IMG/VR virus record: IMGVR_UViG_3300034117_001294
Span: 164,850 to 228,849 of that record
From: a virus
Strand: one strand, 5' to 3'
DNA length: 64,000 nt
Shown: positions 14,693-41,086 of the stretch, in pieces
Position numbering within the stretch: the first letter of the stretch is position 1
Layout: each line of letters starts with the position of its first letter
Made by a program: the position numbers and the translations under genes
The notes under the pieces: model-generated
The model's database searches: none
What the model was told of the DNA's origin: nothing
The model's input: only the letters and a program-made list of their open reading frames with translations

Positions 14693-17600
14693 ATGAATTT
14701 AAATGAGCTGTTTAGTAACAAAAAGAAAGTTGTGTCAGAAGGTGGAAATTTATCGCTACCTGGCGGGCACGATGCACAGCAAATCGATCTTAAAGTGCAT
14801 AATCGTTCCTACATTGTACCAATTTTAGATACACTGTTGATTAATATCAACAGTTCTTTTGCAAAAAAATACAAAAAACCTTTGTGGAATCCGCAACTAC
14901 TACAGAGTAAACAATTTCTAAGTGGAAGTAGTCTACACTTCTTTAATACCAAAGGTATTACTGACCAACAATTTGTAGAAAAGAAACCAAAAGTAGGCGA
15001 CATTGACACACAGGTCAACAAAGAAAACGAACAAGAATTAGAACAATGGTTATCTGCTAGTCAAGGTAAGATGGTAGGCAATGCCAAGTTCTTAGGTTTC
15101 CAAAGAGGCAACGAACAATTCTCCAGTTTATGGGAGCTACAAGACCCACCTATTAAAGTGCAAATTGACTTAGAATTTGTAGAGTTTGACAAAGACGAAC
15201 CCACTCCATGGAGCAAATTTAGTCATAGCAGCAGCTGGGATGATCTAAACGCAGGAGTTAAGGGTGTATTCCACAAGTTTTTAATTCAAAGTCTAGCATC
15301 ATTAAGTAGAAAAGATTTCTTACTACGCAAAGCTGTAGGACGAGGCAAGGCCAAAGAAATACAAGATGTTCCTACAACTGATAACATGGTCAGCTTTGCA
15401 GTATCCAGTAAAGAAGGCGGCGGCCTACGTGCCAAATACGAACCAGTATTAGATGCAAACGGACAGCCTTTAATTAGTAACGGTATGCCAGTTATGCAGG
15501 CATTACCAGCAACTGGTTACGAACAAGACATTGGAAAGATTTTTGGATCTATCTTTGGTTCGAGATTAAATCCTAAACAAGCTGCACAATTAGAAAGCAA
15601 GTACTGGAGCTTTACTGGTTTAGTTGATGCAATGAATACGCTAGTAACTCCAGAAGAAAAGCAGTCAGTGTTGTCTGCATTTATTGACAAAATATTTGGC
15701 AAGGGTGCCCAAGGTCTTTACAAAGGCGATCCAGAGCGTGATAGTGCAGAAAAATCTGCTGCATTGGATTTAATGATCAATAAATTAGGAGTTCAGACAC
15801 CTAGTGATCTTGAACAGATGAAGCAGCAATACAAGGCATCGTACAGAGTTACTGCTGAAAGTTTGCAAGAAGCAGAAGTTAAAGCACAGTTCCGTAAGAA
15901 CATGCCACACCTACGTGATCTAAAGCCTATTGACTTTTTAGATCTATTGGACGAGATTCACGATGGTAATGGTAATTTTAAATTACAAAACATTCCGTTA
16001 AATGTTAAGATTGACGGATTTGGCGGACGTTTTGGTAAGGATGCAGAAGGCAAGCCTTTTATGGCTACCAGCAATACTCCTCCAAGATATAAAGCAGGAT
16101 TTGTACAATATCATCAAGACAAGGGCACAACTGATCCTGAAATTTTAGGTCGTGCAGAAAAGTTTGATGAACTGTTTAATGAAATGATGAACGCTATCAA
16201 ATTGGTTGATAGCAAGCTAGGTGCAGACTTTCTTGTTAATAAACAGGTCACCTGTGAAGTATTGTTCTTGCCGTTTGCAGCCGAAACGTCAGAGGGCAAA
16301 TTAAAATTTGTAGGAATTCAATACGATAAGTTTCCTCCAGGTGTAGAATTAGTTCTTGTGCCGTTCCGTGTAGTAGATGCTAGTTCCGGAGAAGATGTAC
16401 CTGATGCTAACGATGTTGTTACAAGTCTAAGCAAATTAGGCGGACAAGGAAGTGTTAGATTCCTTAGTAATAGTCTAGTACAAAAAGACGGACTTGATGT
16501 TACTGAGATTATTAATCCTTTAGATAATATCGAAGAACTAAAACAAATTGTATCTGACACAGCAGGCAAAAGAGATCGTGCCAGTTTGCAACTAAGACGC
16601 GAAGTAGAAGAAAAATTAATGCCTGTTAAGATTGCACTGGAAAAGGCAATTGATGCAGATCCTAACATTATTGGCAAAGATATATTAGGTCAAGACTACG
16701 AAGGTATTGTTATCAACAGTCGTCTTGGCCCTATCAAAGTTACTAGCCAACAACAAAAAGATATTATTACCCAAAAGAACGCTGCCAAAGCTGCCGCTCG
16801 TGCAGAACAGCCGCGTGGTGAAAACAAAACTGCGGTAGTTGCTATCGGTAGCTTTGTGGGACACAAAGGTCATCAACAGCTATTTGGTCTTACAATTAAT
16901 AAGGCAAAAGAAGTCAGCGGCGATCCTTATCTGTTTATGGGCAGTGCAGTAGGTGCAGACGATCCTATTCCAGTTGCTGACAAAATTAAAACTTGGAAAC
17001 AATTGTATCCCGAGTATGCAGGCAATATCAGTGCTGTAACACAAGAGGGCGGATCTTTGATGCAAAAGATCAAGCACGAGTTAATCAACCCGTTGCCAGG
17101 CAAGCCACCACGCTACGATAATGTTATTATTATGGTAGGTGAAGATCAGGCCAAGATGCCTATCGCACAGGCCCTAATGAAGGCAGTTAATAAGTTTCCT
17201 GGATACGAGCATGTTAAGGTACAATTAGAAGTTACTCCTAGAGGAACTGGCATGAGCTTTACTAAGCTACGTAACGTGTTAAAAACTGGAGATGAGCAAC
17301 AAGCATTCCAAATGTGGAATGATGCATTCAATGGCGGCCAGGATGGAGCAAAACCATTACCGTCACAATGGATTAAACATTTAATGGATGTGTCAAAGAC
17401 CGGAATGAGCACACCTCAACCAAAGCCAGCAGTTAAGAAGCCTGCTGTACTACCTACTCCGCAGACTGTTCAACAACCTGCACTAGGTGAAATGAGATTG
17501 TTTAATGCACTAATGAGTCCTAAAAAAATTGTAAATGAAAAGACTATTGAAGAACGTAAACGTAAAAAAAGTAAAGGTGCAGCATGGGGTCCAGGGCCAT

Positions 17601-19501
17601 ATGGTTGGTACGGATTTGATGCAGGTTATAGTGGTAACGGTGGAGATGGTGGTAGTGATGGTGGTGAGAGCATGAATCAAGAAAACTTTGCTGATAGTCG
17701 TAATCCACAAGACAACAGCAACAGTAAACGGCAAATGTTAAAAATTGCATCATTAAACAATATTAAAGATGTGAACAAAATTAATGCAGGGCAGATGTTA
17801 AAATTGCCTAACGGCACAACTTATAAAGTAATGCCTGGAGATACCCTGTCTACAATTGCGGCAAGACAAGTGAAAGATCAATCTTCTCCAATGCCCCAAC
17901 CCTCAGTTAAACAAGGTCCAAACTCTAACATAGATCAAACGACAAGAGATAAAGCACAGGCATTTGTTGGTCAACAAAAACCAGAAATGGGTGGTGGCAG
18001 GGGGGTCGTTAATCCAGCAACCGTCCGGCCCGACGAACCAACCCAAACCGGAGTTCGAAGTGGTCCTAACACAAACATAGATCAACCAGCAAGAGATAGG
18101 GCCAAAGCGGCTGTTACTAAAATTTCTAGTGAAGACGATATCATGAATATGGTTAAAGATCATGAAGGTGTAAAAAATAAACCATACCAAGATACAAAAG
18201 GATTATGGACTGTAGGAGTAGGTCACTTAATTGGTGATGGCAAGACTCTCCCTTCAGAGTGGAAAAGAACATTTTCAGACGCAGAAATAATGAATCTGTT
18301 TAAAAAGGATTATCAGCATCATAAACAGGCAGCAGAAAAAATTCCTGGATTTAGTAATTTAAACATGAACGGACAGGCTGCTCTAATTGATCTAACATTT
18401 AACATGGGTCCAAGATGGTGGAAGGCTTGGCCTAATTTTACAAAAGCCATGCAAGCAGGAAACATAGATCAAGCAGCAAATGCATTAAAAAATAGTGCAT
18501 GGTATTCACAAGTTGGTAGAAGAGCACCTAAAATTGTATCTCTTTTACAGAGCGGAGATCGATCTGTAGCAGAAAACTTTGCGGATGGACGTAATCCACA
18601 AGACAAGGGCGACAGTAAACGTCACGGCGTTCCTACAAAATCGTCAGTGAGCAATCTACGTAAAGTAGCTAAACAAGGCGGCCGTAAAGGACAATTAGCA
18701 CATTGGATGGCAAATATGAAAGCAGGTAAAGCAAAAGCTAAGAATGAAGACTTCAACGGCGAATACGACGACGAAGCAGGAATGGCACAGAGTAATCTAC
18801 GCACAATGGCTCGTGCAGTTGATGGTTTATTAAAAACTATTAAGAGCAACGATAACTTGCCAGAATGGGGACAAGAAAAGATTGCCAAAGCAGAAATGAT
18901 GTTGGTCAGTGTCTGGGATTATTTGTTAAGCCAAAAAGAAATGGGCATGGATCCTAAGATCAACGAAAGCAAGGCTGTAGAAAGTTTAAGACAGATTGTC
19001 GCAGAGTTGTCCAATGAAAAATTAGGACAATATAAAAAGGCCGCCGGTGATCAAGCAACTGCCGCAGACAAAGCGGGCGACTATGCTAAGGGTCATAAAC
19101 GTTTCAAAGGAATTGTTAAAGCAACTAACAAGCAGTTTGATAATGATGCTAAAAAGCATAGAGAGCAAGGTATGGCGGAGGCTGGCAGCAATGCTATAGA
19201 TACTGTATCTAAACGCTTAACTGATCCTAAAGATGGAATGACAGCCAAACTTAGAGCAGCTGGTGATAAGAAACGCGATAGTCAGTACATGGGCACACAG
19301 ATTGCTAAGAATGATCGAACCAGTAAAGACGAATGGGGCAACTTAAAAGAAAAGATTAAAGGTGCAGACGGCAAAGCCTGTTGGAAAGGTTATAAGTACG
19401 CAGGTACTAAGAACGGTAAAGACAAGTGTGTGCCAATTGGCGAAGCCTACGAACTTGAAATGACCCTGGCTATTCTAAAGCTGTTTGAAAGTAATAAATG
19501 A
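14693..19501 (+). CDS. Multi-domain putative internal head protein with nucleotidyltransferase, LysM and T4-type lysozyme domains
   Basis: A 1602-residue mosaic. Residues 1-700 form a large region I do not recognise, starting MNLNELFSNKKK. About 710-910 is an HxGH nucleotidyltransferase fold (GSFVGHKGHQQL). A Gly-rich linker is near 985, a LysM-like segment (YKVMPGDTLSTIAARQ) near 1045-1060, and a GH24 lysozyme at about 1142-1295, with E, D and T in HEG-x6-QDTKGLWTVGVGH at T4 lysozyme spacing. Two 50-bp direct repeats flank the LysM-lysozyme block. The basic C-terminus has a GMAEA linker near 1495. A packaged, ejected polyprotein that opens the wall is inferred. Confidence 0.75.
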   Translation: MNLNELFSNKKKVVSEGGNLSLPGGHDAQQIDLKVHNRSYIVPILDTLLININSSFAKKYKKPLWNPQLLQSKQFLSGSSLHFFNTKGITDQQFVEKKPKVGDIDTQVNKENEQELEQWLSASQGKMVGNAKFLGFQRGNEQFSSLWELQDPPIKVQIDLEFVEFDKDEPTPWSKFSHSSSWDDLNAGVKGVFHKFLIQSLASLSRKDFLLRKAVGRGKAKEIQDVPTTDNMVSFAVSSKEGGGLRAKYEPVLDANGQPLISNGMPVMQALPATGYEQDIGKIFGSIFGSRLNPKQAAQLESKYWSFTGLVDAMNTLVTPEEKQSVLSAFIDKIFGKGAQGLYKGDPERDSAEKSAALDLMINKLGVQTPSDLEQMKQQYKASYRVTAESLQEAEVKAQFRKNMPHLRDLKPIDFLDLLDEIHDGNGNFKLQNIPLNVKIDGFGGRFGKDAEGKPFMATSNTPPRYKAGFVQYHQDKGTTDPEILGRAEKFDELFNEMMNAIKLVDSKLGADFLVNKQVTCEVLFLPFAAETSEGKLKFVGIQYDKFPPGVELVLVPFRVVDASSGEDVPDANDVVTSLSKLGGQGSVRFLSNSLVQKDGLDVTEIINPLDNIEELKQIVSDTAGKRDRASLQLRREVEEKLMPVKIALEKAIDADPNIIGKDILGQDYEGIVINSRLGPIKVTSQQQKDIITQKNAAKAAARAEQPRGENKTAVVAIGSFVGHKGHQQLFGLTINKAKEVSGDPYLFMGSAVGADDPIPVADKIKTWKQLYPEYAGNISAVTQEGGSLMQKIKHELINPLPGKPPRYDNVIIMVGEDQAKMPIAQALMKAVNKFPGYEHVKVQLEVTPRGTGMSFTKLRNVLKTGDEQQAFQMWNDAFNGGQDGAKPLPSQWIKHLMDVSKTGMSTPQPKPAVKKPAVLPTPQTVQQPALGEMRLFNALMSPKKIVNEKTIEERKRKKSKGAAWGPGPYGWYGFDAGYSGNGGDGGSDGGESMNQENFADSRNPQDNSNSKRQMLKIASLNNIKDVNKINAGQMLKLPNGTTYKVMPGDTLSTIAARQVKDQSSPMPQPSVKQGPNSNIDQTTRDKAQAFVGQQKPEMGGGRGVVNPATVRPDEPTQTGVRSGPNTNIDQPARDRAKAAVTKISSEDDIMNMVKDHEGVKNKPYQDTKGLWTVGVGHLIGDGKTLPSEWKRTFSDAEIMNLFKKDYQHHKQAAEKIPGFSNLNMNGQAALIDLTFNMGPRWWKAWPNFTKAMQAGNIDQAANALKNSAWYSQVGRRAPKIVSLLQSGDRSVAENFADGRNPQDKGDSKRHGVPTKSSVSNLRKVAKQGGRKGQLAHWMANMKAGKAKAKNEDFNGEYDDEAGMAQSNLRTMARAVDGLLKTIKSNDNLPEWGQEKIAKAEMMLVSVWDYLLSQKEMGMDPKINESKAVESLRQIVAELSNEKLGQYKKAAGDQATAADKAGDYAKGHKRFKGIVKATNKQFDNDAKKHREQGMAEAGSNAIDTVSKRLTDPKDGMTAKLRAAGDKKRDSQYMGTQIAKNDRTSKDEWGNLKEKIKGADGKACWKGYKYAGTKNGKDKCVPIGEAYELEMTLAILKLFESNK
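17681..17730 (+). repeat. 50-bp direct repeat, copy A (left of LysM-lysozyme block)
   Basis: Encodes ENFADSRNPQD and following residues. It differs from copy B at about six of 50 bases. The copies lie exactly 891 bases (297 codons) apart, in frame. Confidence 0.85.
18572..18621 (+). repeat. 50-bp direct repeat, copy B (right of LysM-lysozyme block)
   Basis: Encodes ENFADGRNPQD and following residues, in the same frame as copy A. Together the copies bracket the LysM and lysozyme domains as a cassette. Confidence 0.85.
19164..19181 (+). repeat. GVAE-type short repeat, variant copy in the 1602-aa gene
   Basis: AGCAAGGTATGGCGGAGG encodes the QGMAEA linker. It differs by one base from the copies in the gene at 20141. 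Confidence 0.7.
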
Positions 19502-22437: not shown

Positions 22438-22707
22438 ATGTCAAAAGCATTCGGTGCACCAGAGCAAGCAAAGATTAAGCAGATTGTCGCAGAAGGTATG
22501 ACAGTTATGCAGGAAATTCAAGACTTAACAGAAGGATTGAATGAAACAATCAAAGCTGTTGCAGAGGAACTTGAAGTCAAGCCAAGCGTTATCAAGAAGG
22601 CTATCAAGATTGCACAAAAAGATACATGGGATCAAGTGTTCCGTGAGTTTGATGATTTGGAAACTATTGTTGATATTAGCGGTCACAGTTTTCGTAAGGA
22701 AGATTAA
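22438..22707 (+). CDS. dsbA: DsbA-like double-stranded DNA-binding protein
   Basis: An 89-residue, mostly helical protein, the same length as T4 DsbA, a dsDNA-binding protein linked to late transcription. The conserved-looking core is GLNETIKAVAEELEVKPSVIKKAIKIAQKD, which reads as a helix-turn-helix-like pair. This phage DsbA is unrelated to the thiol oxidase of the same name. Directly behind a strong promoter and upstream of DNA polymerase. Assignment rests on length, fold and context rather than clear identity to T4. Confidence 0.6.
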   Translation: MSKAFGAPEQAKIKQIVAEGMTVMQEIQDLTEGLNETIKAVAEELEVKPSVIKKAIKIAQKDTWDQVFREFDDLETIVDISGHSFRKED

Positions 22708-22994
22708 TGGGCCTTGTCCAAAAAATATATAATTGGGCGAGAACTGATTATCGAGAGTGGCCAACTCGATTTTCATTAGAAATTGCTGCCTGGCTAATGA
22801 GTCTCGGATGTTCCTTAACATTGGCCGCAGGAGCAACTGATCCTTTATTTTTCTATCTATATCCTATATTCATTTTACAATGTGCAATATTCGGGTGGGC
22901 TGCTTGGACTCGTAAGAGTACTGGCATGGTTGCAAACTATCTACTATTAGTCACTATTGACATTGTTGGATACGTTAGACTATTAAATATATAA
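22707..22994 (+). CDS. Small multi-pass membrane protein (95 aa)
   Basis: Its ATG overlaps the TAA of the DsbA-like gene. Three hydrophobic segments are visible (SLEIAAWLMSLGCSLTLAAG, FFYLYPIFILQCAIFGWAAW, VANYLLLVTIDIVGYVRLL) with short loops. It sits between DNA-binding protein and DNA polymerase genes and may tether replication to the membrane or exclude other phages, but nothing in the sequence proves it. Confidence 0.65.
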   Translation: MGLVQKIYNWARTDYREWPTRFSLEIAAWLMSLGCSLTLAAGATDPLFFYLYPIFILQCAIFGWAAWTRKSTGMVANYLLLVTIDIVGYVRLLNI

Positions 22995-23004
22995 GAGAAA
23001 GGTT

Positions 23005-23024
23005 TGATCAGCCATAAATGATCA
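23005..23024 (+). promoter_or_regulatory. Upstream operator hairpin of the DNA polymerase leader
   Basis: TGATCA (23005-23010), an 8-base loop GCCATAAA and TGATCA (23019-23024) form a 6-bp hairpin. Its loop differs by one base from that of the hairpin at 23033-23054. Confidence 0.55.
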
Positions 23025-23032
23025 TGTTGGTA

Positions 23033-23054
23033 TTTGTAGGCCACAAACTACAAA
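23033..23054 (+). promoter_or_regulatory. Operator hairpin touching the DNA polymerase ribosome-binding site
   Basis: TTTGTAG (23033-23039), loop GCCACAAA (8 bases) and CTACAAA (23048-23054) form a 7-bp hairpin, immediately followed by GGAG (23055-23058), the ribosome-binding site for ATG 23065. T4 and RB69 gp43 repress their own translation by binding a hairpin with an 8-base loop at this place. Confidence 0.6.
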
Positions 23055-23064
23055 GGAGAAAAAA

Positions 23065-25734
23065 ATGAGCTACGTCGATTCAATGTGGGATCGCGACAAG
23101 GACGTTATTCGCGTCGTTGAGCGTGATCCCAAAAAAGGCAGAATCTTTCAAGATTATCCTGCCAAATATGTATTATACTACCCAGACTCTAAAGGAAAAT
23201 ATCGTTCAATTTACGGTGATCCTCTTAGCAAAGTTTCTGTCAAAAATTACAAAGAGTTCCAAAAAGAAACCCGAATTCATTCAGGAAAGAAACTCTTTGA
23301 AAATGATATTAATCCTGTATTCCGATGCCTAGAAGAAAACTATTTAGGCAAAGATGCTCCTAAGCTCAATGTAGCATTTTGGGACATTGAAGTAGACTTT
23401 GATCCAGAACGTGGTTACAGTACTCCTGAAGATGCGTTCATGCCAATTACTGCGATTTCTGTCCACCTACAATGGTTAGATACATTAGTATGTCTTGCAG
23501 TCCCCCCAAAGACACTGACAATGGAGCAAGCAGTAGAGCAGGTAAAAGACTTTCCTAACACAATGCTGTTTGAAACAGAATACGAAATGTTGGAAACATT
23601 CCTGGGCTTGATTCAAGATGCAGATATTTTAAGCGGATGGAACAGTGAAGGATACGATATGCCTTATACTGTCAACCGCATCATTAAAGTTCTTAGCAAA
23701 GAAGATACCCGTAGGTTATGTCTATGGGACCAGTTCCCCAAGAAACGGGAGTACGAGAAGTATGGAAAAAAGGCTATTACTTATGATCTTGTTGGTCGTG
23801 TTCATTTGGACAGTCTCGAGTTGTACCGCAAGTACACCTATGAAGAGCGACATACATACCGATTGGATGCAATTGGAGAGATGGAGGTAGGTGAAACTAA
23901 GACGCAGTACGAAGGTACCCTAGATCAATTGTACAACAATGACTTCCGCAAGTTTATTGAATACAACAGGCAAGATACTGCATTGCTGAATAAACTAGAT
24001 AATAAATTAAAATTTATTGACCTAGCAAATACACTAGCACATGAATGTACTGTGTTGTTACAGACCACAATGGGTGCTGTGGCTGTAACTGAGCAGGCCA
24101 TTGTAAATGAAGCTCATCATCGAGGACTAATTGTTCCGGGTCGTCCTAAACGTGATGATGATTTAGAAACACAAGCCGCTGGTGCGTATGTTGCATATCC
24201 TAAGAAAGGATTGCATGACTGGATTGGATCAATGGACATTAACTCATTGTATCCGTCAGCTATTCGTGCATTAAACATGGGACCAGAAACTATTGTTGGG
24301 CAGTTACGTCAATCTTATACCAAAGCTGAAATTGAAGGTAAGATAGCAAAGGGTTCTAGCTTTGCAGCCTCTTGGGAAGGCAAGTTCGGCAGTAACGAAT
24401 ACGAACTTGTCATGGCAAAAGATCGTGTAACTGATATCACAGTTGATTGGGAAGATGGCAGAGTTGATGTGCTAAGTGGGGCTCAAATTTATGAACTGAT
24501 TTTTGAAAGTAATCAGCCGTGGGTTATCTCAGCAAACGGTACTATCTTTACCTATGAGAAAGAAGGGATCATTCCTGGATTGTTGAAACGTTGGTATGCC
24601 GAACGTAAAGAAATGCAGGCAAAATTAAAAGAATGTATTGCATCGGGGAATAAAGTTGAAGAAGAATATTGGGATAAAAGACAGCTGGTTAAAAAGATTA
24701 ACCTTAATAGCTTATACGGTGCTATTCTTAACGCTGGTTGTAGGTTCTTTGATAATCGTATTGGGCAATCCACAACTCTTACTGGTAGACGGATCGCCAG
24801 GCATATGGCTTCGAAAGTAAATGAAGTTATTACTGGAGACTATAACTACACCGGCAAGAGTGTGATATACGGTGATACTGACTCTGTATATTTTAGTGCA
24901 TACACTACTTTAAAAAATGATATCAATAAAGGGGTAATTCCCTGGAACAAAGAAGTTGTCGTTCAACTATACGATACTATCTCTGAAGAAGTAAATGGAA
25001 CATTTCCACAATTTATGTTGGACGATTTTCATTGCCCAAAAACTCGAGGAGATGTTATTAAGGCCGGTCGAGAATTTGTTGCTATCAAAGGCATCTTTAT
25101 GACCAAGAAGCGATACGCTATCTTGTACTTTGACAAGGAAGGTAAGAGGCAAGATATAGATGGCAAGCCAGGTAAAATCAAAGCCATGGGCTTAGATTTG
25201 AAACGTAGTGATACTCCTGAATTTATGCAAAACTTTTTAAGCGAGATTTTAACCAAAGTTCTTAACAATGCTCAAGAAGAAGAAATTCTAGAACGTATCG
25301 GTGAGTTCCGAAGTGAATTCAAACAGAGGCCTGGGTGGGAGAAGGGTAGTCCTAAACGTGCAAATAACATTGCAGAGTATCAGGCCAAAGAAGTCAAAGC
25401 GGGTAGAACCAACATGCCCGGACATGTTCGTGCTAGTATTAATTGGAATACTCTTAAACGTATGAACGGTGACAAATACTCGATGGGTATTGTAGACGGC
25501 ATGAAAGTTATTGTGTGCAAGATGAAAGACAATCCATTAGGATACACTTCAATTGCATATCCAGTTGACGAAATGCGTTTACCGAAATGGTTCCAAGAAC
25601 TTCCGTTTGATCATGGGGAGATGGAGGCAACCATTATTAACAATAAGCTAGAAAACCTTATTGGAGTACTAGAGTGGGATTTAGAATCCACTACACAAAA
25701 TAATACATTCGGCAGTTTATTCAGCTTTGAATAA
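23065..25734 (+). CDS. 43: Family B replicative DNA polymerase, gp43-like
   Basis: An 889-residue polymerase with 3'-5' exonuclease, close to the 898 residues of T4 gp43. Exonuclease site I is FWDIEVDF (D107, E109). Polymerase motif A is SMDINSLYPS (Asp near 391), motif B is KKINLNSLYGA near 542, and motif C is YGDTDS (D604, D606). All catalytic acids are present. No intein, intron or split is seen. Its leader carries two tandem hairpins with matching loops, suggesting translational self-control as in T4. Confidence 0.96.
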   Translation: MSYVDSMWDRDKDVIRVVERDPKKGRIFQDYPAKYVLYYPDSKGKYRSIYGDPLSKVSVKNYKEFQKETRIHSGKKLFENDINPVFRCLEENYLGKDAPKLNVAFWDIEVDFDPERGYSTPEDAFMPITAISVHLQWLDTLVCLAVPPKTLTMEQAVEQVKDFPNTMLFETEYEMLETFLGLIQDADILSGWNSEGYDMPYTVNRIIKVLSKEDTRRLCLWDQFPKKREYEKYGKKAITYDLVGRVHLDSLELYRKYTYEERHTYRLDAIGEMEVGETKTQYEGTLDQLYNNDFRKFIEYNRQDTALLNKLDNKLKFIDLANTLAHECTVLLQTTMGAVAVTEQAIVNEAHHRGLIVPGRPKRDDDLETQAAGAYVAYPKKGLHDWIGSMDINSLYPSAIRALNMGPETIVGQLRQSYTKAEIEGKIAKGSSFAASWEGKFGSNEYELVMAKDRVTDITVDWEDGRVDVLSGAQIYELIFESNQPWVISANGTIFTYEKEGIIPGLLKRWYAERKEMQAKLKECIASGNKVEEEYWDKRQLVKKINLNSLYGAILNAGCRFFDNRIGQSTTLTGRRIARHMASKVNEVITGDYNYTGKSVIYGDTDSVYFSAYTTLKNDINKGVIPWNKEVVVQLYDTISEEVNGTFPQFMLDDFHCPKTRGDVIKAGREFVAIKGIFMTKKRYAILYFDKEGKRQDIDGKPGKIKAMGLDLKRSDTPEFMQNFLSEILTKVLNNAQEEEILERIGEFRSEFKQRPGWEKGSPKRANNIAEYQAKEVKAGRTNMPGHVRASINWNTLKRMNGDKYSMGIVDGMKVIVCKMKDNPLGYTSIAYPVDEMRLPKWFQELPFDHGEMEATIINNKLENLIGVLEWDLESTTQNNTFGSLFSFE

Positions 25735-26522: not shown

Positions 26523-26890
26523 TAAAAGGGTTAACCCACAGTGGACTATACCTCCAGGTAACTGGAGGCAGTCCAATGAATCCTTACATTCCTTCCGGAA
26601 ACCAATCAGCAGGTATGATGAGATATAATACCTCTAATCATAATATAGAAGTGTATGACGGTTCATCGTGGCAAGAGTTAGCCAGCAGCTATGCTAGTGT
26701 ATCAATGACCAGTGAAGCAGTAGCATTGCTTGACTGGGCTCGAAAGAAGCGTGACGAAGAATTGCAACTTGAAGCATTGGCCCGAGAACATCCTGCTATT
26801 AATATTGCCTTGGGCAATTTAAAGAAGGCCAAGATACAATTAGATGCTACAATAATATTAAGTAAAGAACATGACGAAACAACAAGTTAA
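26519..26890 (+). CDS. Hypothetical protein with fibre-like motif (123 aa)
   Basis: It overlaps the clamp gene by four bases. Residues 30-52 (AGMMRYNTSNHNIEVYDGSS) carry the RYNT...VYDGSSW pattern common in phage tail-fibre and virion proteins, while the C-terminal 60 residues are helical and charged. A virion-like segment among replication genes is odd. It may be a structural protein or a protein that reused the fold; no function is assigned. Confidence 0.65.
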   Translation: MIKGLTHSGLYLQVTGGSPMNPYIPSGNQSAGMMRYNTSNHNIEVYDGSSWQELASSYASVSMTSEAVALLDWARKKRDEELQLEALAREHPAINIALGNLKKAKIQLDATIILSKEHDETTS

Positions 26891-28508
26891 CCTAACACCA
26901 TTACAGAAAGACTATGCTGTCTATTTGCCAGCTATTAGTAGTTTCTATAGTACCTATGTTGCCAAACAACGACTAGAAGAATTCGTGCCTAAAGCTCGAG
27001 TTCCGGCAGGATTTGATCGTGGTATTGAAGGTATGAATTTTTTAAATCCTGAACAAGGATATTTCACATACAAGTACGGTCTATACTCTGCGGGTCACGC
27101 ACAGTTGGACTTGAATAAGAGTATAACGCAGGAGTCAATGATCCAACAACGTGATCGCGGGAATACAATGATTCTGGGAGACTCCGGCGGATACCAAATT
27201 GGTAAGGGCGTTCTAAAGTTTGACTGGTTAGACTTTGAAGGTAAAAGTGCTACTAAGACACGCCAAAGTATTTTAGAATGGCTCGAGCTCACAGCCGACT
27301 GGTCAATGATGTTAGACGTTCCTACATGGGCTTGCGATCACATCCATAGTCCAAAGACAGGCTTAAAAACATTCGATGACTGTTTAGACAAGACTCGCTA
27401 CAACAACGATTACTTCCTAATGAATCGATTAGGCCAAACTAAATGGCTCAATGTTTTACAAGGTTCAGATTGGGACACTGCTGAAAAGTGGTATGCAGGT
27501 GTAAAAGAATTCAGCGATCCTAAAGGTAAGTATGCAGGTCGCGAAGCAGAAGGTTGGGCCTTCGGTGGTGCCAATATGTGCAAGATGGATATTACACTCA
27601 AGCGTCTAATGACCTTGCGTGAAGATGGTTTGCTGAAGGGCAAAAACTGGATCCACTTCTTGGGTACAGCACAACTCGACTGGAGTTGTTACTTAACTTT
27701 GATTCAACGACAAATTAGGAAACATATTAATGAAGAGCTTACCATATCTTTTGACTGTGCCTCACCGTTCATCGCAACAGCACACGGACTTGTCTACACA
27801 AACGCAGTCCACACGCCAAAAAGGTGGAGTGTTATTATGGACAAAGCCCCAGATAACAAAGCACTTTCAGGATCAGATATCCCGTTCCCATTCGAATCGT
27901 CAATCGGTCGCAGACTAACAATGAAGGATATTGCCTACTATGATCTAGGCGAGAGAAAGACTGACGCAGAATTAAATGGTGCTAAGTTTGATCACTTAAA
28001 TCCTGCTCACTATAACACTGTGCCGAGACTTAATAAACTAGGTAAGATTCCAAACAAAACATCGTGGGATAGTTTTGCCTATGCATTGATGATGGGTCAT
28101 AATGTTGAGTGTCATATTGTTGCGGTACAACGTGCTCAACAGTTAATGGATATTGAGATTGCCAAGACTTCCGGCAAGCTACATTGGACACATTGGAAAA
28201 AAGTTAAGGGCTCTGATATGAGCGACGAACACAGTGACTGGGTTCCTAGAAATGTGTTATACTTTAATACCTTTGTAGAGGATCTATTCAATACTAAGGA
28301 TAAAGCAGAAGCATTTGCAATGATCGAACAAGCTATGCCTTTCTTAAAGAGTTTAGAAGGTTCTCGCTTGCAAGGCGGTCCTGCTCAAAACAAGTTTAAC
28401 AACTTATTCGAAATTGAAGAAGTTACTACTTCGTCGGAAGTAGATTTAGAAAATCCAGACGATGACGACCTACGTTCTTTAGAAGAAGGAATTATTAATG
28501 AATCGTGA
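26871..28508 (+). CDS. dpdA: TGT/DpdA-like 7-deazaguanine DNA transglycosylase
   Basis: A 545-residue protein related to tRNA-guanine transglycosylases. ILGDSGGYQ near residues 101-109 matches the TGT motif S-D-S-G-G-F-Q with its active-site Asp; SFDCASP near 292-298 matches the nucleophile motif F-D-C-x-x-P. The zinc site C-x-C-x-x-C of tRNA enzymes is not seen. DpdA proteins of this superfamily swap guanine in DNA for a 7-deazaguanine base. FolE and QueE, which make the precursors, lie 3-7 kb downstream, supporting DNA rather than tRNA as substrate. It overlaps neighbours at both ends. Confidence 0.8.
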   Translation: MTKQQVNLTPLQKDYAVYLPAISSFYSTYVAKQRLEEFVPKARVPAGFDRGIEGMNFLNPEQGYFTYKYGLYSAGHAQLDLNKSITQESMIQQRDRGNTMILGDSGGYQIGKGVLKFDWLDFEGKSATKTRQSILEWLELTADWSMMLDVPTWACDHIHSPKTGLKTFDDCLDKTRYNNDYFLMNRLGQTKWLNVLQGSDWDTAEKWYAGVKEFSDPKGKYAGREAEGWAFGGANMCKMDITLKRLMTLREDGLLKGKNWIHFLGTAQLDWSCYLTLIQRQIRKHINEELTISFDCASPFIATAHGLVYTNAVHTPKRWSVIMDKAPDNKALSGSDIPFPFESSIGRRLTMKDIAYYDLGERKTDAELNGAKFDHLNPAHYNTVPRLNKLGKIPNKTSWDSFAYALMMGHNVECHIVAVQRAQQLMDIEIAKTSGKLHWTHWKKVKGSDMSDEHSDWVPRNVLYFNTFVEDLFNTKDKAEAFAMIEQAMPFLKSLEGSRLQGGPAQNKFNNLFEIEEVTTSSEVDLENPDDDDLRSLEEGIINES

Positions 28509-40459: not shown

Positions 40460-41086
40460 ATGAAACATGTTGGAAAAATGAAGAACAACGGAGCAAAGTT
40501 AGCCGTTGTGTTTAGAACACTGCCCGGCGAAGCTACCAGTGCTCTAGTATGCGGTACTAATGCATTACCTGATGCATTCCACGATTCTCTTATGAGTCTA
40601 ATTGAAAGCGAGTCCGGTCAGCAAGCAAATGAACTTGCAGATGTACTGGCTGTACGCAGGTTCCCAGATGGTTCCAACATGTTGGAATTCTTACACCGTA
40701 ATGGACTATTGACCAAAGTTGCAACCAACATGGTCACTATGGTATTTGATAATAAGAATCAAATTGCATTAAGTGAACTAAATCAACTAGTTGCTGACCA
40801 AAAAGGTATTACTATTGATCAATTATCTATTACAGAATCAACTGAGCAGAAACCAGCAAGTCCTGTTGCAAAGGAATCTGTAAAAACTAAATGGGACAGA
40901 GCTAGAGAAGACAAAATCAAAGAAAACGAAATTGTCGTTGACAGCACACCTGTAGAGTTGTCTCCTACAGAAATGCGTAGCCGAGCAGATGCACTTTTTA
41001 AAGAGGCTGCAAGATTACGAAAAGAGGCAGACACTATTGATCCGCCAAAGAAGAAAACTTCAAAAGTAGAAACTACTGAAGCATAA
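40460..41086 (+). CDS. Hypothetical protein (208 aa)
   Basis: The first 125 residues form an alpha/beta domain (GAKLAVVFRTLPGEATSALV; PDAFHDSLMSLIESESGQQANELADVL); residues 130-208 are charged and probably disordered or coiled (MRSRADALFKEAARLRKEAD). It is the last plus-strand gene before a shared terminator. No catalytic motif recognised. Confidence 0.7.
   Translation: MKHVGKMKNNGAKLAVVFRTLPGEATSALVCGTNALPDAFHDSLMSLIESESGQQANELADVLAVRRFPDGSNMLEFLHRNGLLTKVATNMVTMVFDNKNQIALSELNQLVADQKGITIDQLSITESTEQKPASPVAKESVKTKWDRAREDKIKENEIVVDSTPVELSPTEMRSRADALFKEAARLRKEADTIDPPKKKTSKVETTEA

Follow-up and report, generated by a model that had tools for sequence, protein, structure and literature searches.

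Does the short leader of a phage DNA polymerase gene carry a regulatory RNA and, if so, of what kind? The question was raised by a large uncultured phage, from whose 228,849-base IMG/VR virus record we analysed bases 164850-228849 (a stretch of 64,000 nucleotides, called the window below). The first-pass annotation of this DNA had described two hairpins, with stems of 6 and 7 bp and 8-nt loops, lying 28 bases apart in front of a T4-type polymerase gene, with the second stem touching a GGAG ribosome site. All of this was confirmed. Both hairpins are present exactly where they had been placed, HP2 ends at 23054 and GGAG starts at 23055, and the gene encodes a family-B polymerase. The features of the locus are as follows.

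22707..22994, + strand: small upstream ORF, 95 aa, ending 6 nt 5' of the unit 1 GGT
23001..23003, + strand: predicted 5' strand of the unit 1 pseudoknot helix, GGT (GGU), partner of loop bases 23011-23013; GGY/RCC or AGU/GCU, covarying with no exception
23005-23024, + strand: unit 1 hairpin (HP1), TGATCA stem, 8-nt loop, TGATCA
23005..23010, + strand: unit 1 stem 5' strand, TGATCA; the conserved 5 bp are 23006-23010, covariation at S1-S5
23011..23018, + strand: unit 1 loop, GCCATAAA; its GCC pairs with GGT, and ATAAA would cross the pseudoknot helix
23019..23024, + strand: unit 1 stem 3' strand, TGATCA, from the fold and covariation
23025..23028, + strand: linker between the units, variable in sequence, its length compensating to give a loop-to-loop distance of 29 (27-30)
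23029..23031, + strand: predicted 5' strand of the unit 2 pseudoknot helix, GGT, pairing with 23040-23042; invariant in near relatives, A-U for G-C covarying in the sister clade
23033-23054, + strand: unit 2 hairpin (HP2), TTTGTAG stem, 8-nt loop, CTACAAA
23033..23039, + strand: unit 2 stem 5' strand, TTTGTAG; covariation, pair S2 having switched concordantly 15 times, independently and on supported branches
23040..23047, + strand: unit 2 loop, GCCACAAA, from the fold and conservation in relatives
23048..23054, + strand: unit 2 stem 3' strand, CTACAAA, which lies against the ribosome site AAAGGAG and shares part of it
23055..23058, + strand: GGAG, ribosome binding site of the polymerase gene, from the sequence
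23065..25734, + strand: family-B (T4 gp43-type) DNA polymerase, 889 aa, ATG at 23065 (phrog_262 E 5e-199; Pfam DNA_pol_B and DNA_pol_B_exo1)

The hairpins in the window

The stems of HP1 and HP2 start 28 nt apart and their loops 29 nt apart, and both the MFE and the centroid folds of the leader contain exactly these two hairpins. The folding energy of the leader is ordinary (z -0.05) and therefore energy alone would not single it out, and the loop word by itself is not rare in the window (5 matches versus 5.4 expected). Paired similar hairpins, defined as 8-nt loops with no more than one base of difference, on stems of at least 6 bp and within 45 nt of each other, were found once in the window and in none of 40 simulated 64-kb windows. 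The decisive evidence for the element is found in the leaders of relatives.

Covariation of the stems in relatives

A protein search of IMG/VR with the polymerase gave 80 contigs, and the leaders of nearly all of them have two hairpins in which the stems differ and the loop type is alike. Two pattern scans added about 200 more loci, with a polymerase encoded beside the motif on every contig found in this way. The tandem is present in 158 of 170 unique leaders, and five others (L016, L026, L039, L042, L153) have a tandem in which the second loop is 1 base longer or the closing pair is mismatched. The remaining seven are the distant named isolates Phosso, Atu_ph07, Vibrio 2.275.O, XbC2, SCTP-2, 121Q and MIJ3, in which no tandem was found. 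Over the 170 leaders the loop consensus is mostly GCYAYAAN in unit 1 and mostly RCCNNAAR in unit 2. In XbC2, 121Q and MIJ3 (L084, L086, L087) we observed G+C-rich hairpins with T runs, resembling intrinsic terminators, at the operator's place before the polymerase gene.

Positions S1-S4 of the unit 1 stem are paired in all 126 unique modules, each of S2-S4 showing 35-38 double changes, and S1-S3 of unit 2 are paired in 60/60 unique gap-8 modules, with up to 36 double changes. In slid registers of the stems pairing falls to 12-43%. In an ungapped alignment of 30 sequences 96.5% of cells are paired, versus at most 53% in slid versions, and double-change cells number 54 versus 13.5 after shuffling (none of 500 shuffles reached 54). 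On the polymerase tree, pair S2 of unit 2 underwent 39 purine/pyrimidine switches, and all 15 of those on supported branches were matched on the opposite strand (p 6e-5). The unit 2 stems contain 87 G-U-type cells and a single A-C-type cell, which indicates that the element works as sense RNA.

That a conserved tandem structured RNA element exists is therefore close to certain. The first-pass annotation had made its proposal depend on compensating stem changes and loop conservation in related leaders; in relatives the stems of the two units covary and their loops are kept, and on these alignments the evidence for a tandem element is stronger than that annotation had it.

Each unit as a probable pseudoknot

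The hairpins are not the whole of the element. Upstream of each loop, at 5-9 nt, stands a GGY to which the loop's first three bases are complementary; the combinations seen are GGU/GCC, GGC/GCC, GGU/ACC and AGU/GCU. This pairing had been missed in the first-pass annotation. If GGY pairs with the loop RCC, each unit is an H-type pseudoknot and the conservation of the loop is partly structural. The original view that the loop is what is conserved thus holds in that the loop type is kept in relatives; the loop does more than stand free for recognition, its first three bases pairing with GGY.

The first pseudoknot pair is G-C in 142 leaders and A-U in 11 for unit 1, and G-C in 212 and A-U in 43 for unit 2, with no mismatch in either. 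When loops were permuted among leaders, 222 (at most 230) of 259 were complementary, versus 259/259 observed. Both pattern scans preset the pairing bases, the first asking for GGY with GCC in unit 1 and the second for GGT with GCC in unit 2, so that only counts obtained free of that condition matter. For unit 2, the loci from protein queries only gave 116 G-C, 43 A-U and nothing else, and for unit 1 the loci outside its own pattern scan gave 80 G-C, 11 A-U and nothing else. Concordant changes at this pair on the best polymerase trees numbered 5 for HP1 and 3 for HP2, well-supported branches carrying only 4 of these 8 switches (2 and 2). The helix has 3 bp, of which one is invariant and the third is mostly U-G; in some loops of the sister clade the pairing extends to four (GAGU/GCUC, and GAGU/ACUC in one). 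Among the 57 leaders with GGY 5 nt from the loop there was no pseudoknot double change, and with this gap the crossing of the stem is sterically tight.

Taking these counts together, we consider GGY/RCC pairing in each unit very probable. We rejected an arrangement in which each GGY pairs with the loop of the neighbouring unit, because in L006 HP1 has AGU/GCU while HP2 stays GGU/GCC, and a role of GGY as a second ribosome site is disfavoured by the AGU variants, which are matched by the loop GCU.

The HP1 arms in the window are TGATCA palindromes, as might be expected of DNA dyads acting as operator, origin or modification sites rather than as RNA. However, the arms vary freely provided that pairing holds, G-U is accepted on the sense strand only (the 87 versus 1 above), and the commonest third pseudoknot pair is the U-G wobble, all of which makes DNA dyads extremely improbable. 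By sequence comparison both stems, the pseudoknot pairing and action as sense-strand RNA are established.

Geometry of the two units

In most leaders a spacer of 1-3 nt separates GGY from a stem of 5-7 bp, which carries the 8-nt loop RCC-NNAAR. From loop to loop the units are 29 nt apart (27-30, sd 0.7) and the linker has 4-9 nt (sd 1.5), the loop spacing being the steadier because the GGY-to-loop gap shifts the opposite way. Unit 2 ends 9-14 nt 5' of the start codon in nearly all leaders, and the ribosome footprint expected there takes in unit 2 and leaves unit 1 outside. We infer that the near-fixed spacing reflects a geometry between two bound partners, as it suggests. In six leaders (L079, L214, L230, L254, L255, L275) the first unit lies about 176 nt 5' of the polymerase start, which means that extra sequence stands between the tandem and the start codon.

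A constitutive element with no specific ligand, tuning ribosome access or acting in the stability or processing of the mRNA 5' end, would be in line with the ability of stable hairpins beside a ribosome site to reduce initiation unaided, and with the polymerase gene nearly abutting the upstream gene in some element-free relatives. Nevertheless, simple tuning needs no conserved loop identity in two units, no pseudoknot pairing and no fixed spacing, and we judge such a role very unlikely.

Searches for other copies and known families

A covariance model was run on 14 long records (109-270 kb); every record had a single strong copy, located at the polymerase gene, and all other matches were at E 0.027 or worse. 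A match at 40714-40768 of the window (13.6 bits) was rejected as a further copy, there being no pair of such units at that place. The unit 1 pattern was not found in bacterial genome contigs, blastn of the leader against phage records gave no match, and our literature searches found no described tandem pseudoknot operator. No Rfam family matched the leader above its gathering threshold; the best match, preQ1-II, reached 16.1 bits against a cut-off of 47, was driven by the ribosome site, and was rejected.

These searches bear on the possibility of a tandem small-molecule sensor, a riboswitch for a nucleotide or dNTP for example, exerting cooperative control of polymerase translation. Tandem copies and A-rich H-type pseudoknots overlapping the ribosome site are a known riboswitch architecture, and the element has both, at a position that suits an expression platform. 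On the other hand, a unit of only about 25 nt has few invariant bases, nearly all of them accounted for by the pairing and the loop AA, just one gene is controlled, and Rfam holds no match. A riboswitch therefore seems to us quite unlikely.

Comparison with known operators

T4 gp43 is an autogenous translational repressor, and so is RB69 gp43, acting from the same place; for the gene 43 operators of both phages no evidence of a pseudoknot is reported (PMC3014915). The operators of T4 (AGCCU-AAUAACUC-GGGCU) and RB69 (AGAC-AAUAACUC-GUCU) share with the element a stem with an 8-nt loop, just upstream of and overlapping the ribosome site of the same type of gene, here a family-B polymerase gene. 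They differ in that each is a single hairpin, whereas here there are two units with covarying GGY/RCC, and in their loop AAUAACUC with its UAAC core, which the loops RCCNNAAR, engaged in a pseudoknot, do not contain. The doubled operator proposed at the T4-type place was thus right as to two conserved units at the polymerase start, but the loop and fold of these units do not match those of T4 and RB69. Judged by sequence and fold the element is not a T4-type operator, although it may work like the gene 43 operator. In the RB49 gene 43 leader a hairpin, CUUU-CGUAAAUG-AAGG, overlaps the ribosome site as unit 2 does and its loop has UAAA, but there is only one unit and no GGY/RCC pairing.

An H-type pseudoknot in the gene 32 leader of T4, T2 and RB69 is used in autogenous translational repression, and in 2010 this was described as perhaps the only viral pseudoknot serving translational autoregulation (PMC3014915). 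Pseudoknots of the gene 32 type have coaxial stems and a short first loop; what covariation supports here is the same H-type topology, likewise before a replication gene of a T4-type phage. In gene 32, however, gp32 spreading over A+U-rich RNA is nucleated by a single pseudoknot some 67 nt upstream, whereas here there are two, one of them touching the ribosome site, and the gene encodes the polymerase rather than a single-strand binding protein. Doubled operators are known from cells, E. coli thrS and the L20/rpmI leader having two protein sites per leader that give stronger control; the doubling is alike, but the structures, proteins and hosts are unrelated.

A probable two-site translational operator

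The element is tied to one gene, reaches into the ribosome site, keeps its RNA structure in relatives and comes as a doubled unit. These features point to an operator with two binding sites that acts in cis on translation of the phage DNA polymerase, and this is our best reading of the leader. The strict linkage to the polymerase start, the fixed loop spacing and the way unit 2 overlaps the ribosome site are features of the aligned sequences themselves. Each site would be a compact H-type pseudoknot, with the A-rich half of the loop crossing the short GGY/RCC helix. When a protein held the pseudoknots folded, unit 2 would block 30S binding, and unit 1, outside the ribosome footprint, would raise affinity or cooperativity.

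The putative regulator is the polymerase itself, which, like T4 gp43, would repress its own synthesis whenever it is not engaged on DNA. Autogenous repression of this kind is the most economical explanation, since T4 and RB69 gp43 repress themselves from the same place, and by that analogy we hold it to be probable. The same two-site operator might instead be read by another protein, such as a phage single-strand binding protein, a RegA-like, a small DNA/RNA-binding or a host protein. T4 gp32 does recognise an H-type pseudoknot with this topology in the mRNA that encodes it (PMC3014915), and the small protein encoded two genes upstream weakly matches a transcription-regulator family. But a trans regulator with other duties usually has more targets than the single copy per genome found here, only at the polymerase gene, and RegA sites are unstructured (PMC3014915), so that we regard a different protein as rather unlikely.

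If the polymerase is the regulator of this operator, the two pseudoknots, 29 nt apart, could bind two polymerases, or a polymerase pair, cooperatively and give a steep shut-off of synthesis. We put this forward tentatively; if true, tandem pseudoknots would here make up an autogenous operator, a kind without precedent in the literature searched. To our knowledge, autogenous polymerase control of the T4 kind is known from very few phages, and the first RNA SELEX experiment reportedly took such control of T4 DNA polymerase as its target.

Turnover of the element

Where the polymerase is at least 70% identical to that of the window, nearly all leaders have the tandem. At 60-70% identity the unit 2 pseudoknot is kept in 120 unique leaders and absent from 59; with about 60 of roughly 180 leaders lacking the element, the polymerase can evidently do without it. 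Parsimony on the polymerase tree gave 26 changes of presence, which implies rapid turnover, even if the figure is inflated by the strict motif definition.

Sister phages (polymerase about 62-66% identical) keep the second pseudoknot and have a first hairpin of another kind; below 70% identity, 108 leaders that keep unit 2 have a different upstream hairpin in place of unit 1. In the sister clade (for example L343:900-1000, L555 and L331) this replacement reads TCG-stem-ACGUYAC-stem-CAUG, with a loop that is often ACGUYAC and covarying stems (GCUC/GAGC, GUUC/GAAC, GCCC/GGGC). In some operator-free relatives the polymerase start nearly touches the upstream gene: in L301, L303, L304, L314 and similar relatives (polymerase about 63-64% identical) the leader is absent and the start, often TTG, abuts the end of the small upstream gene, which suggests translational coupling in place of the operator.

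A widespread uncultured clade with the tandem, a sister clade with one unit kept and the other swapped, and many relatives with neither form a natural evolutionary series for the study of operator-polymerase coevolution, and the clade supplies ready, naturally compensated variants.

Two other reading frames of the window were noted. At 26871-28508 a 545-aa ORF resembles by eye a tRNA-guanine transglycosylase/DpdA-type 7-deazaguanine enzyme and, at the thresholds applied, matched nothing in Pfam or PHROG. At 14693-19501 a 1602-aa ORF encodes a protein far longer than the phage lysozyme domain (1155-1279) and LysM repeat embedded in it.
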